A program made the position numbers and the translations under genes. DNA of 64,000 bases from Halomonas ventosae (lineage in GTDB: Bacteria; Pseudomonadota; Gammaproteobacteria; Pseudomonadales; Halomonadaceae): positions 62,001 to 126,000 of the forward strand of contig NZ_SNWH01000006.1 of assembly GCF_004361885.1 (NCBI RefSeq), in the 5' to 3' direction. Every line of letters starts with the position of its first letter. Positions within the stretch are counted from its first letter, which is position 1. Shown piece by piece: positions 49,418-62,575 of this stretch. The notes beneath the pieces are model-generated. The model was not told the DNA's origin, made no database searches, and was given only the letters and a program-made list of their open reading frames with translations.

Positions 49418-51898
49418 ATGGGCAAGCGATTCTCGTGGACATGGACGACCCTGGCAGGCCTGGCCTGTACCGGCCTGGCGAGCGGGCCGCTGATGGCGGC
49501 GCCGCCCGAGTCGCTTCCGGCGGATCAGCTCGACTGGCAGCCGTGGGGCGAGGCGCGCCCCGCCGGCGAGCTGTGTAGCGGCCGCTACGTGATGCCGGAC
49601 TACCGGCTGCCGCCGCCGCCCGGCGATAAGGTCAGCAGCGAGTCCGACCGCGCCGACTACGGAGCCCAGGGCGATACGATGCTCACCGGTGAGGTGTTGC
49701 TGCGCCGTGGCACGGCGCAACTCGAGGCGCCCCAAGTGCGCGTACCCGGGCCCCGTGAGACTGCCTACGCCGAGGGGCCGCTGACGCTTCGCGATACTGG
49801 CCTGCTGGTGCGCGGCGAGGCCGCACAGCTATCGCTGACCGGCGATGCCGCGCGCATCGACACGGCCCACTACGTGGCCCACGAGCAGCACCTGCGGGGT
49901 GACGCGGTACGTCTGGCGCGTCTCGAGGATGGCCGCTACCGCCTCACCGAAGCGAGCTTCACCACCTGCGAGCCGGGCAGCGACCTCTGGCGCCTGGTGG
50001 GCAATGACATCCTGCTCGACCGCGAGCGCGGGGTGGGCACTGCCACCCATGCCCGACTGGAGGTAGGCAAGGTACCGGTCTTCTACTGGCCATGGGTGCG
50101 CTTCCCCCTCGACGAGCGCCGTCAGACCGGTTTTTTGTGGCCGGTGCTCGGCCTCTCCAGCGACTCGCTGGACTATGCCCAGCCCTTCTACTGGAACATC
50201 GCCCCCCATCATGACGCCACGCTCACGCCGCGCTGGATCAGCGACCGCGGCCTGCTGCTGGGCGGCGAGTACCGCTACCTGTTCGAGCAGAACGCGGGGC
50301 AGGTCGAGGGGGCCTATATCGCCAATGATCGCGCTGCGGCAGAGGATGCCTCCGCCGCCTCGGAACTGGATAACGGCGATGCTCGCTGGTACCTTGACTA
50401 TCGCCATGCGGGCCGTTTCGACGCCCGTACCCGCTACCAGTTGCGCTACGGGGCCGCCAGCGACGGGCGCTACTTCGACGACTTCGGACGCACCATCGGC
50501 GAGGGCGACATCGGCAGCTTGCCGAGGCTGGCCCAGCTCGACCACCGCGGTGACCGCTGGCAACTGCAGGCTAAGGCCCAGGGTTATCAGAAGCTCGACG
50601 ACCCGCTGCTCGAGCGCGACAAGCCCTTCTACCGCCTGCCGAGCCTGACCGCCAACGCCAACTGGGCAGAGGACAGTGGCCTCTACCAGCAGTGGCGCTC
50701 CAATGTTACCTACTTCTGGCGTGACGTGACGGCCAACGAGCAAGGCATCTATGAGGTCGGGGGGCGGCGCCAGCAGATCCCCATTGCCGAGGCGGCTAAC
50801 GGCACTCGACTGCATCTCGCCCCGGCTATGGGTTGGCGTTTCGACGCGAGCTGGGGCCACTTCGAGCCCCGCCTCGAATGGCTCGCCACCGCCTACCAGC
50901 TTGACTACGGCGATCGCCAGACCGCGCGCGACGAGTCTCTCACCCGCAGCGTGCCAGTGGGCAGCCTCGATGCCGGCCTGGAATTCGAGCGCGAACTCGA
51001 GCTGGATGGCCACGGCTACCGCCAGACCCTGGAGCCGCGGGTCAACTACGCCTATGTTCCGGCCCGCGACCAGAGTGAGTTTCCCGACTTCGATACCGCC
51101 GAGCAGGCCTTTTCCTGGAACCAACTCTGGTCGCCCCACCGTTTCAGCGGCAGCGACCGAGTGGGCGATCTCAATCGCGTCTCCGTCGGGCTCGAATCAC
51201 GATTGCTGGCCGATGCCACCGGCCGCGAGCGGCTCTCGCTGGGGCTGGGGCAGGCCTACTACCTGGAGGATCGCACCATCGACATGGCGGGCGACCCGGA
51301 TACCCTGCCGGATCCCGAGACCCGCGACATGGACTACTATCGGGCGACGCGCGATCGCTCGCCGCTGGTCACCCGGGCCGACTGGCAGATCACCGACCAC
51401 TGGCAAACGCGCTGGCAATGGCTCTACGACGACCGTCGTGAGCGGACCGAGAACACCTCGCTGGCCCTGCAGTATCGCGCCCCTGCCGGTCACGTGTTGA
51501 ACCTCGGCTACCGCTGGCAACTCGAAGGCTTCGATCCGTCCCTGGAGGACGAGGACGCCATCAACTACAACCGTGAGGAGATCGACGTCTCGTTTGCCTG
51601 GAAGGCCAGCCGCCGCCTGGACCTGATCGGACGGTTGCTCTACGACAATACCAACAGCCGTGCCCTGGATCAGTTGGCGGGTATCCAGTGGAACGACTGC
51701 TGTTATGGTCTGCAGCTGGTCTGGCGCGAATGGATCGACGACAACGACACCGCCAACACCATTCAGGACGACCTCACCGACCGCGGGGTATTCCTGCGCT
51801 TCGTGCTCAAGGGGTTGGGCGGCGTCGGCGGCAAGGCCGACAGCTACTTCTCTGAGGCGGTGCCGGGCTATCGTCCCGCCGCTCTCGGCCTGCCCTGA
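49418..51898 (+). CDS. lptD: LPS assembly outer membrane protein LptD
   Basis: 826 residues. Signal peptide to about residue 28 (GPLMAA), a beta-jellyroll domain (about 60-220) and a C-terminal 26-strand barrel. The four cysteines needed for its two disulfides are in place: C53, C184 and the adjacent pair C761-C762. With LptE it places lipopolysaccharide on the outer leaflet. First gene of lptD-surA-pdxA-rsmA-apaG-apaH. Confidence 0.96.
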   Translation: MGKRFSWTWTTLAGLACTGLASGPLMAAPPESLPADQLDWQPWGEARPAGELCSGRYVMPDYRLPPPPGDKVSSESDRADYGAQGDTMLTGEVLLRRGTAQLEAPQVRVPGPRETAYAEGPLTLRDTGLLVRGEAAQLSLTGDAARIDTAHYVAHEQHLRGDAVRLARLEDGRYRLTEASFTTCEPGSDLWRLVGNDILLDRERGVGTATHARLEVGKVPVFYWPWVRFPLDERRQTGFLWPVLGLSSDSLDYAQPFYWNIAPHHDATLTPRWISDRGLLLGGEYRYLFEQNAGQVEGAYIANDRAAAEDASAASELDNGDARWYLDYRHAGRFDARTRYQLRYGAASDGRYFDDFGRTIGEGDIGSLPRLAQLDHRGDRWQLQAKAQGYQKLDDPLLERDKPFYRLPSLTANANWAEDSGLYQQWRSNVTYFWRDVTANEQGIYEVGGRRQQIPIAEAANGTRLHLAPAMGWRFDASWGHFEPRLEWLATAYQLDYGDRQTARDESLTRSVPVGSLDAGLEFERELELDGHGYRQTLEPRVNYAYVPARDQSEFPDFDTAEQAFSWNQLWSPHRFSGSDRVGDLNRVSVGLESRLLADATGRERLSLGLGQAYYLEDRTIDMAGDPDTLPDPETRDMDYYRATRDRSPLVTRADWQITDHWQTRWQWLYDDRRERTENTSLALQYRAPAGHVLNLGYRWQLEGFDPSLEDEDAINYNREEIDVSFAWKASRRLDLIGRLLYDNTNSRALDQLAGIQWNDCCYGLQLVWREWIDDNDTANTIQDDLTDRGVFLRFVLKGLGGVGGKADSYFSEAVPGYRPAALGLP

Positions 51899-51929: not shown

Positions 51930-52607
51930 ATGCGCAGTCGACGTATCGCCACCCTGGCGCTGGCCCTGTGTCTGGCCACCCTGCCGCTGGCGGGACAGGC
52001 CCAGGACGCCGGCGCCTCGGACTCCCGGCAGGTAGAGCGCCAGCCGCTGGAGCGCCAGCCGCTGGATCGCATCGTCGCGGTGGTCAATGACAGTGCCATC
52101 ATGCACAGCGAGCTCGAGGAGCGGGTCGACCAGACACGCGCCCAGATCGCTCGCCAGTCGCAGCAGGGCGTGCCCCCTGAAGACGTGCTGCGCCAGCAGG
52201 TGCTGGATCGCATGATCGTCGAGGAGATCCAACTGCAGCTGGCCCGTGATGCCAACCTGAGCGTTGACGACACCGAGCTCAATCGCCAGGTACGGGCTAT
52301 CGCCGAGAGCAACGGCATGACACTGGATCAGTTCGCCGATGCCCTCGAGGCCGACGGCCTCTCGCTGGCCGTGGTCCGCGACCAAGTACGCCGTGAACTG
52401 CTGATGCGCCAGCTCCAGCAGCGCCAGGTTGCCAGCCGCGTCAGCATCTCCGAGCGAGAGGTGGATCGCTTCATGGCCCAGCAGGGCGTCAGCCGCGAGC
52501 AGGCTCGCCAGGCGCTTTTTCAGCGCAAGGTCAATGCCGAGATGGAAGCGTGGATCCAGGAGATTCGCAGCCGCGCTTTCATCGACAATCGCCTCGCGGA
52601 GCGCTGA
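51930..52607 (+). CDS. surA: SurA-type periplasmic chaperone lacking both PPIase domains
   Basis: 225 residues against about 430 for E. coli SurA. A signal peptide (1-25, AGQAQ) is followed by the SurA N-domain (about 46-185; LDRIVAVVNDSAIMHSELEERV) that joins directly to the C-terminal helix (about 190-225; ALFQRKVNAEMEAWIQEIRSRAFI). Both parvulin domains are absent; the frame is intact and ends normally. In E. coli the N- and C-domains alone keep most chaperone activity. The linker carries a perfect 15-bp tandem duplication (52035-52064). It sits at the normal place between lptD and pdxA; its stop overlaps pdxA (TGATG). Confidence 0.92.
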   Translation: MRSRRIATLALALCLATLPLAGQAQDAGASDSRQVERQPLERQPLDRIVAVVNDSAIMHSELEERVDQTRAQIARQSQQGVPPEDVLRQQVLDRMIVEEIQLQLARDANLSVDDTELNRQVRAIAESNGMTLDQFADALEADGLSLAVVRDQVRRELLMRQLQQRQVASRVSISEREVDRFMAQQGVSREQARQALFQRKVNAEMEAWIQEIRSRAFIDNRLAER

Positions 52608-53653
52608 TGGCGACGGCTAACATTCCGCTGCTGGCCCTGACCTGTGGCGAACCGGCGGGCATCGGGCCGGAGCTCGCAGTGATGCTGGTCGCCGACGAAG
52701 TGCCGTCGGCACGGCTGGTGGCGGTGGGCGACCCGGCGCTGCTGGCCGAGCGTGCTGCGCTGCTCGGCCGCCGGGTGGAGGTCCGCGTGCTGACGCCCGA
52801 CGAGCCTGTACCGGCACCGCGGCGCGGCGTGCTGCCGGTATGGCCGGTGGCGCTGCGGGCCCCCTCACAGCCTGGCCGGCTCGAGCCGGCCAATGCCGGC
52901 CATGTGCTCGAAACTCTGGACGTGGCGATCGCTGCGTGTCTCTCCGGTCACGCCGCCGGCATGGTCACCACCCCCTTGCACAAGGGCGTGATCCTCGATG
53001 CCGGCCATGTCGGCTTCACCGGCCACACCGAGTACCTGCGCGATGCCTGCGGGATGAAGGAGGTGGTGATGATGCTCGCCACCGATAGCGCCCTGCATGC
53101 CCGCGGGCCGGGCATGTTGGCCCTGAGGGTGGCGCTGGCCACTACCCACCTGCCGCTGCGCGAGGTGGCCGACGCCATCACTGCGCCCCGGCTCGAACGC
53201 CTGCTGCGCATCCTTTACGCCGACCTGCAGCGCTGGTTCGGCGTGGTGGCACCGCGTATCGCCGTGTGCGGCCTCAATCCCCATGCTGGGGAGGGCGGCC
53301 ACCTGGGCCGCGAGGAGCTGGACGTGATCATTCCCACCCTGGAGGGCCTGCGTGCCGAGGGGCTGGCCCTTGATGGCCCCCTGCCCGCCGATACCCTGTT
53401 CACTCCGCGCCACCTCGAGGGCGTCGATGCGGTGCTGGCCATGTACCATGACCAGGGCCTGCCGGTGCTGAAGTATGCCGGCTTCGGCCGCGCCGCCAAT
53501 ATCACCCTGGGGTTGCCGCTGGTGCGCACTTCGGTGGATCACGGCACCGCCCTTGACCTGGCCGGCACGGGGCGCGCCGATCTCGGCAGCCTGCGGGTGG
53601 CGGTGGCGCTGGCCGCCCAGATGGCTGGACGTTCCACTACGACACCTGCGTGA
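52607..53653 (+). CDS. pdxA: 4-hydroxythreonine-4-phosphate dehydrogenase PdxA
   Basis: 348 residues, vitamin B6 synthesis: NAD-dependent oxidation of 4-phospho-hydroxythreonine. Family motifs: TCGEPAGIGPE, TTPLHKGVI, GFTGHTEYL, CGLNPHAGEGG, AMYHDQGLPVLKY, VRTSVDHGTA. Zinc-binding histidines lie in the last three. One-base overlap with surA. Confidence 0.96.
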   Translation: MATANIPLLALTCGEPAGIGPELAVMLVADEVPSARLVAVGDPALLAERAALLGRRVEVRVLTPDEPVPAPRRGVLPVWPVALRAPSQPGRLEPANAGHVLETLDVAIAACLSGHAAGMVTTPLHKGVILDAGHVGFTGHTEYLRDACGMKEVVMMLATDSALHARGPGMLALRVALATTHLPLREVADAITAPRLERLLRILYADLQRWFGVVAPRIAVCGLNPHAGEGGHLGREELDVIIPTLEGLRAEGLALDGPLPADTLFTPRHLEGVDAVLAMYHDQGLPVLKYAGFGRAANITLGLPLVRTSVDHGTALDLAGTGRADLGSLRVAVALAAQMAGRSTTTPA

Positions 53654-60754: not shown

Positions 60755-62575
60755 ATGGCCGGCCAGATTCCCCAGCGCTTCATCGATGACCTCCTCGCTC
60801 GCGTGGACGTGGTGGAGGTGGTTGGCGAGCGGGTGACGCTGAAGAAGGCCGGACGTAACCACTCGGGCCTGTGTCCCTTCCATCAGGAGAAATCGCCCTC
60901 GTTCACCGTCAGTGCCGACAAGCAGTTCTATCACTGCTTCGGTTGCGGCGCCCACGGTAATGCCCTGCGCTTCCTGATGGAGTACGACAAGTTGCGCTTT
61001 CCTGAGGCCGTGGAGCAGCTTGCCGCGCGACTGGGCATGGAGGTGCCCCGCGAGGGCGCCGACGACCCACGTGCTCAGGCCCATGAGCGCAAGCGCAAGG
61101 AGGGGGTCAACCTGCTCGAACTTGCGGGGAGCTACTATCGCGAGCGGTTGAAGATGCCCGAAGGTGAGGGCGCGCGGCGCTACCTGGCCGCGCGCGGGCT
61201 GTCGCCCGAGGTACAGCAGGCCTTCGCCATCGGCTATGCCCCGGCCGGCTGGGAGGCGCTCAAGGGCCACCTCGCGGAGCGCGGCATCAGTGAGGCGGTG
61301 CAGATTGAGTATGGCCTGCTGGTGCATCGTGAGGAGAGCGGACGGACCTATGACCGCTTCCGCGACCGGGTGATGTTCCCGATCCGCGATATCCGCGGGC
61401 GGACCATTGCCTTCGGCGGGCGGGTGCTGGGCGATGCCAAGCCCAAATACCTCAATTCACCCGAGACGCCGGTATTCCACAAGGGGCGCGAGCTCTACGG
61501 CCTCTTTGAGGCCCGGCAGGCCAACTCGCGACTCGAGCGGCTAGTGATCGTCGAGGGCTACATGGACGTGGTGGCGCTGGCCCAGTTCGGCATCCGCAAC
61601 GCCGTGGCGACCCTTGGCACCTCCACCAGCGAGGAGCATCTGGGACGGCTGTTCCGGATGGTCGGCGAGGTGGTGTTCTGCTTCGACGGCGACCAGGCCG
61701 GTCGCCAAGCGGCCGCCCGGGCACTACAGGCGGTGCTGCCGCAGATGATCGACGGTCGCCAGGCACGTTTCATGTTCCTGCCCGAGGGGGAAGACCCCGA
61801 CAGCCTGGTGCGCCGAGAGGGGTCGGGGGCCTTCGCGGATCGCATCACTTGCGCCAGCCCCCTGTCGGAATTCCTGTTCGATCACGCCGCCGAGGGCCGC
61901 GACCTGGCAACGATCGAGTCGCGTGAACGCTTTGCCAGTCAGGTGCTCTCGGCGATTGGCAAGCTACCGGAAGGGGTGCTCAAATCGCTGCTGCTGACGG
62001 AGCTCTCACGGCGCACCGGCGTCGCTCAGTCGCGCTTCGAAGCGTTGGTCGCGCCAGGCGATGTTCCCGAGGCTGAGCCTGCCCGCGCTGCGCGGTCTGA
62101 GCGTGACACCGTACCGCGCACCAGGCCGTCGCGAGGCGGCGGCTCGTCGGGTGGGGCGTTAAGCCTGATGGGGCGGGTGCTGCAGTTGCTGGTTCACGAG
62201 CCGCGGCTGGTGTCGCGTTTGCCCGAAGGGGGTGACTGGTATCCCATGCAGGACCCGGAGGCTCAGCTGTGCCACGAGGTGGAGCGACTGTTGCGAGCCG
62301 GGCGCTACCGCAGCGCCCAGGTGCTGCTGGCGCACTTCCACGGCACGCCGGAGGGCGAGCGGTTGACCGAGCTGGCGCGACGCGAGCTGCTCATCCCCTC
62401 GGAAGCGCGGGCCGCCGAGCTGGACGGGTTGGTCGAACACTTCCGGCGCTACCGTCTCAAACCGTCGCACCAGGAGGAAGTCGACGCCTTGCTGTCAAAG
62501 CAGCAGCGGGGCGAGCGACTCTCGCAGGAGGAGCGCCAGCACCTCATGGAGCTGCTCACCGAGCTCAAGGGGTGA
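60755..62575 (+). CDS. dnaG: DNA primase DnaG
   Basis: 606 residues. N-terminal zinc-binding domain CPFH...CFGCG (C40, H43, C61, C64), TOPRIM core with VIVEGYMDV and FCFDGDQAG acidic motifs, and a C-terminal DnaB-binding domain after a glycine-rich linker (about 480-500). It makes RNA primers at the fork with the DnaB encoded at 30489. ATG at 60755; weak Shine-Dalgarno (CAGGG). Confidence 0.96.
   Translation: MAGQIPQRFIDDLLARVDVVEVVGERVTLKKAGRNHSGLCPFHQEKSPSFTVSADKQFYHCFGCGAHGNALRFLMEYDKLRFPEAVEQLAARLGMEVPREGADDPRAQAHERKRKEGVNLLELAGSYYRERLKMPEGEGARRYLAARGLSPEVQQAFAIGYAPAGWEALKGHLAERGISEAVQIEYGLLVHREESGRTYDRFRDRVMFPIRDIRGRTIAFGGRVLGDAKPKYLNSPETPVFHKGRELYGLFEARQANSRLERLVIVEGYMDVVALAQFGIRNAVATLGTSTSEEHLGRLFRMVGEVVFCFDGDQAGRQAAARALQAVLPQMIDGRQARFMFLPEGEDPDSLVRREGSGAFADRITCASPLSEFLFDHAAEGRDLATIESRERFASQVLSAIGKLPEGVLKSLLLTELSRRTGVAQSRFEALVAPGDVPEAEPARAARSERDTVPRTRPSRGGGSSGGALSLMGRVLQLLVHEPRLVSRLPEGGDWYPMQDPEAQLCHEVERLLRAGRYRSAQVLLAHFHGTPEGERLTELARRELLIPSEARAAELDGLVEHFRRYRLKPSHQEEVDALLSKQQRGERLSQEERQHLMELLTELKG

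Follow-up and report, generated by a model that had tools for sequence, protein, structure and literature searches.

What the two parvulin domains of SurA (P1 and P2) do for the cell, and why SurA coexists with Skp, are unsettled questions; laboratory deletions work partly, and in a client-dependent manner. A gene of Halomonas ventosae, located in the 64,000 bp stretch of contig NZ_SNWH01000006.1 analyzed here (positions 62,001 to 126,000; hereafter, the window), raises both questions in a natural setting, as it encodes the SurA N-domain joined directly to the C-terminal helix. Is this protein (P0001) a working chaperone, and which proteins remain around it for prolyl isomerization and for the handling of outer-membrane-protein clients?

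A surA gene without parvulin domains

The gene lies between lptD and pdxA, in the same order and orthologous place as in E. coli (Table 1). The original prediction of an intact frame with normal neighbor junctions stood, given the 225-residue frame, the lptD end at 51898, and the surA stop codon (52605-52607), which shares one base with the pdxA start at 52607. Using Pfam, the N-domain (SurA_N, PF09312) scored 122 bits against a curated cut-off of 30.8, and no Rotamase family was present in P0001 at E ≤ 0.1. The nearest solved sequences found via phmmer were those of E. coli SurA (best match 8pz1_F, E 8.4e-22), with residues 43-189 aligned to the N-domain and residues 176-218 aligned, as a separate and weak piece (7.2 bits), to the C-terminal helix (406-445 of 8pz1_F). 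The two pieces skip P1 and P2, and both searches therefore bear out the predicted joining of the N-domain to the C-terminal helix with both parvulin domains absent.

Table 1. Positions in the window of surA, its parts, and the adjoining genes.
Feature	Position	Strand	Details
surA, core-only form (P0001)	51930..52607	+	225 aa + stop
Signal-like N-terminus, residues 1-25, ends AGQAQ	51930..52004	+	Putative; hydrophobic and cleavage site, both judged by eye
SurA N-domain, residues 45-162	52062..52415	+	PF09312, E 1.9e-35
Junction G186-V187	52485..52490	+	Alignment with L034; G161 and G213 (same genus) hold one parvulin domain at G186-V187
Core C-terminal helix, residues 189-224	52494..52601	+	Model secondary structure, superposition on 1m5y, phmmer
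lptD, upstream neighbor	49418..51898	+	Order as in E. coli
pdxA	52607..53653	+	Start codon overlaps surA stop

The NCBIfam equivalog PRK10770.1 (peptidylprolyl isomerase SurA) gave P0001 99.2 bits against a cut-off of 394 and, as this model spans the parvulin domains, P0001 is not a full-length SurA isomerase. A SurA-type peptidyl-prolyl isomerase (PPIase) carries at least one parvulin domain, and none was found in P0001 or near surA. What P0001 does have of SurA is PF09312 above its cut-off, the C-terminal helix that completes the core, and the lptD/pdxA location; it is a core-only SurA, the product of the surA ortholog in the canonical lptD-surA-pdxA place.

Two findings elsewhere in the genome would speak against the original prediction, namely a parvulin domain in frame near surA or a second full-length SurA. 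Upon a six-frame search of the assembly (3,238,660 bases in 64 contigs; completeness 99.99), only two matches to the parvulin family PF00639 were seen, both on other contigs than surA, corresponding to PpiD (607 aa, SurA_N_3 plus one parvulin) and a NifM/PpiC-like protein of 274 aa in which no signal peptide is apparent by eye, and hence no parvulin in frame near surA. P0001 matched its own genome once at E ≤ 1e-15, and the PF09312 profile matched twice, with the second match taken to be PpiD (the N-domain of which scores 36.5 bits); neither search revealed a second full-length SurA.

The same form of the gene is widespread in the genus of the window. P0001 found a match in 89 of 90 genomes. 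In 87 of these (several being single-contig genomes), the alignment is unbroken, spans no more than 675 bases, and reaches at least residue 222; the two exceptions, G213 and G161, carry an insert. This spread excludes a sequencing slip, the deletion artifact against which the original prediction had cautioned. Compared to six Halomonas relatives (81-87% identical in the locus comparison and 84-89% in the dN/dS analysis), surA displayed a dN/dS of 0.13-0.20, a ratio that indicates purifying selection on the sequence. Given the intact frame, this selection, and the genus-wide conservation, the gene is not a broken one, as originally proposed.

Domain loss across the family

The core-only class itself has been described, and the single gene adds little to it. 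Of 14,244 SurA homologs, 99.5% reportedly carry one or more PPIase domains, with 73 classed as core-only, 49 of the 73 from Halomonas and largely from extreme environments (PMC11401910, Schiffrin et al. 2024); like P0001, these Halomonas proteins comprise SurA_N and the C-helix with no PPIase domain. The available text of that paper gives counts only, and the order of P1/P2 loss, one-domain relatives, and Skp are not treated there. SurA-like proteins with fewer parvulins on a SurA-like core are also known, such as HP_0175 of Helicobacter pylori (PMC9820271), although proteins of this type are described as keeping one parvulin where P0001 has none. The laboratory SurA-core (SurAN-Ct) shares the architecture of P0001, with the construct removing residues 172-389 and the natural junction lying near E. 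coli 165/386; unlike the construct, P0001 is natural, stable over a genus, and combined with the loss of skp.

A comparison across the family, suggested in the original prediction as a check, covered 121 SurA genes from 24 genera and showed that domain loss recurs, a point absent from that prediction. The sample, which is not a random draw, comprised the 30 best-scoring loci of a family SurA_N search, 60 chosen to cover genera and both exceptions, 30 further loci, and the window gene, with the genus of the window supplying 27 of its 90 genomes. Using the tail length after the N-domain (rather than a per-protein domain search) to set the class, the genes fell into three separate bands of 37-41, 147-168, and 259-292 residues (n = 121), corresponding to 35 genes with two parvulins, 59 with a single one, and 27 without any. 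When compared to the P1 and P2 domains of two-domain relatives, the single parvulin was nearest P1 in 35 of the 59 and nearest P2 in the remaining 24 (margin of at least 57 bits each). The P1-type domain is kept in the genera g4, g9, g12, g13, g14, g16, g20, g21, and g23, and the P2-type domain in every one-domain gene sampled from the sister genus g11 (20 genes), two genes of g2, and the two exceptions in the genus of the window. In g2, the P2 domain of a gene with both parvulins remains ~95% similar to that of two P2-only genes, and the loss of P1 in this genus is, on sequence grounds, recent.

When mapped onto a tree built from the adjoining lptD and pdxA segments, the three states require a minimum of 10 changes, and well-supported branches force 3 to 6 per class; only the inner part of this tree is taken as reliable, as the outgroup does not form one side of a branch and the outer genera are joined by long branches. 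Change counts do not tell gain from loss, and the changes are read as losses given that the outer genera have two domains. The core-only state occurs in no fewer than two separate places, namely the window's own genus and a pair of g11 genomes (G158 and G135), with core-only G158 placed as sister to one-domain G080 in an eight-gene tree (support 100/100). The same eight-gene tree placed G213 and G161 (one P2) inside the genus of the window. A tree constrained to group the 12 core-only members of that genus had the better score and passed the AU test (p 0.655); either one loss or several within the genus would therefore fit.

Two minor observations concern individual genomes. At the junction, the separate core-only SurA of G158 and G135 (loci L047 and L055) has a linker that is longer and rich in glycine. 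In G137 (g4; single contig, 93% complete), the SurA_N match is weak (7.4e-8), unlike the clear matches in other members of g4, and may reflect a damaged surA or the absence of the gene from the assembly.

Loss of skp

A search for Skp (PF03938) in the genome of the window gave no match at E 0.001, with the best at E ≤ 1 being 0.002 and under the cut-off, while the remaining 47 of the 48 genomes tried have a match over the cut-off. In this genome, bamA is followed by lpxD with 146 bases between the two (contig C12, outside the window; L176, 3399-3543). Aligned with H. ventosae, this gap keeps the ribosome-binding stretch, a signal-peptide remnant starting with ATT, and the bases before lpxD, while the body of skp is gone; as read from this alignment, the genome has lost skp, and the gap is its scar.

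Across the genus, Skp is present in 80 of 90 genomes, with no match in the other 10. One of the latter (G236; 79% completeness, without Skp and LpxD matches) was left out of the checked losses. The bamA-lpxD gap is 146-372 bases in the nine checked genomes without Skp (two of which, G141 and G167, are single-contig genomes) versus 554-575 bases in 12 of 12 with Skp. The AU test rejected a single loss in the nine (p 2.8e-6); nor do the Skp-less genomes other than that of the window, eight in number, form one clade (p 0.0014). Counted by the starred branches, these topologies indicate at least three losses of skp in the genus. In G167, G195, and G219 (L212, L225, and L220), the gap measures 148-150 bases and still contains a short open frame resembling the skp signal peptide, followed by a stop.

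In the wider family sample, 14 of 201 genomes had no Skp match, comprising five of the core-only genus, seven of 14 of g20 (G038, G051, G073, G083, G091, G110, and G118), and two of g3, with g20 and g3 assessed by profile search only. We considered whether skp loss is a consequence of a core-only SurA; this is not supported, as all three Skp-less g20 genomes represented in the SurA sample (G038, G091, and G118) carry a two-parvulin SurA. The three one-domain SurA genes of g20 come from genomes with Skp.

Taken together, we lean towards regarding the family as a natural SurA deletion series, with N-P1-P2-C, N-P1-C, N-P2-C, and N-C forms reached several times and with skp deleted at least three times in the core-only genus, such that here, and in similar genomes, the SurA/Skp pair of dedicated soluble chaperones would be reduced to the core SurA. 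No natural P1/P2 loss series or skp loss in Halomonas was found in the literature searched (with few subscription journals and preprints among it), nor was the separate loss of P1 and P2 in different genera, together with repeated skp loss beside a core-only SurA. This family, where the deletions arose one by one in evolution and where Skp has gone from some of the same genomes, allows the purpose of these parts to be asked in living strains, and this salt-loving bacterium is an apparent natural test of a minimal chaperone for the outer membrane. If true, a free-living bacterium would be able to build its outer membrane with neither the parvulin domains nor Skp.

A core SurA as a probable holdase

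The structure prediction called for as a check on the original prediction is consistent with the N-domain and C-helix packing as in the E. coli SurA core. The AlphaFold model (21 aligned sequences; mean pLDDT 70.6, mostly 70-94 in residues 58-219 and below 50 in residues 1-57) superposes over residues 54-220 on residues 25-425 of E. coli SurA (1m5y_A) with a Z of 14.6 and an rmsd of 2.2 (162 residues aligned, 28% identity). The top twelve Foldseek rows are all SurA, including BAM-bound SurA chains. The model is helical throughout, with no strand of three or more residues; it thus displays the core fold and lacks a PPIase domain, the features by which PMC11401910 defines core-only SurA from predicted structures. 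P0001 therefore shares with E. coli SurA the gene neighborhood and, as predicted, the core fold, whereas the E. coli protein has P1 and P2, ~220 residues more.

The crevice positions tied to client binding in E. coli SurA, as reported in PMC11401910 (I91, M109, M114, I132, and M136), are V, M, F, V, and L in P0001 and hydrophobic in all 121 family genes, whatever the parvulin number. Tyr128, for which the same report proposes stacking against aromatic residues of clients in E. coli, is Val in P0001 and in the majority of family members, irrespective of SurA class. Given that Tyr128 is not kept, client choice may differ in the core-only SurA.

The domain content, predicted core fold, dN/dS, spread over 87 of 89 genomes, and hydrophobic crevice together make it very probable, in our view, that P0001 is a SurA ortholog cut down to its core and working as an outer-membrane-protein holdase. 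The proposal that this lineage kept only the holdase part gains support from the intact and selected gene, its conservation in the genus, the modeled fold, and the lack of a second SurA in the searches. P1 and P2 would have been removed in frame from surA, leaving the core, and the last step before the core-only form was probably N-P2-C, given that the one-domain genes of the sister genus (20 sampled), G213, and G161 hold a P2-type domain. Periplasmic prolyl isomerization would then be left to an FkpA/Mip-type FKBP and PpiD and, with skp gone too, soluble holdase function for outer-membrane-protein clients would fall mainly to the core SurA here.

Laboratory work on E. coli SurA lends plausibility to this reading by analogy. 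In a strain depleted of SurA and deleted for skp, SurAN-Ct is reported to complement the growth defect fully (PMC2956729), and this living laboratory strain has the same combination (core SurA, no skp) as the genome of the window. SurA-core was reported to bind BAM with a Kd of 1.3 uM, compared to 2.6 uM for whole SurA (PMC9177699), and the core alone to expand OmpX (PMC11401910). As counterpoints, P2 is described as needed for maximal acceleration of tOmpA folding (PMC9177699), and work cited in PMC9820271 found that SurA without PPIase domains fails to prevent OmpT aggregation.

A less favorable reading is that the gene is a decaying remnant and that outer-membrane protein traffic relies on PpiD, DegP, or an unknown holdase. 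The repeated loss of domains in the family and the loss of a second chaperone gene, skp, from this genome would fit such decay, as would the reported rescue of surA skp E. coli cells by multicopy PpiD; however, the same source indicates that PpiD cannot replace SurA in general (PMC2956729), and a remnant would sit poorly with a dN/dS of 0.13-0.20, an intact gene of the same length throughout those 87 genomes, and a kept core crevice and C-helix. We consider this decidedly unlikely.

Equally unlikely, in our assessment, is a split SurA, in which the isomerase job has moved and an FkpA-type FKBP or PpiD works in trans with the core. The original prediction had asked which enzyme isomerizes proline in the periplasm, and our search answers it in part, with candidates rather than an assignment. 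Five FKBP_C matches are present in the genome, including one FKBP_N-FKBP_C protein of the FkpA/Mip type with a signal-like N-terminus and one 153-aa FKBP that is SlyD-like in appearance, together with a single cyclophilin (by eye, without a signal-like N-terminus). From these sequence features, the FkpA/Mip-type FKBP and PpiD are the likely candidates for periplasmic prolyl isomerization. Both genes being present is what a split SurA would require, but bacteria that have a full SurA commonly possess FkpA and PpiD as well, and their presence here thus shows no replacement. Moreover, PPIase activity is reported to be dispensable in E. coli SurA (PMC9820271).

Lastly, an assembly or annotation artifact, to which a single draft genome of 64 contigs could be prone, is refuted by the recurrence of the same form across the genus, in several genomes of one contig, and can be set aside.

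The 274-aa NifM/PpiC-like parvulin lies at L002 1135-1959 (contig C2), downstream of an apparent narI, and could belong to the nitrate reductase operon as a cytoplasmic isomerase.
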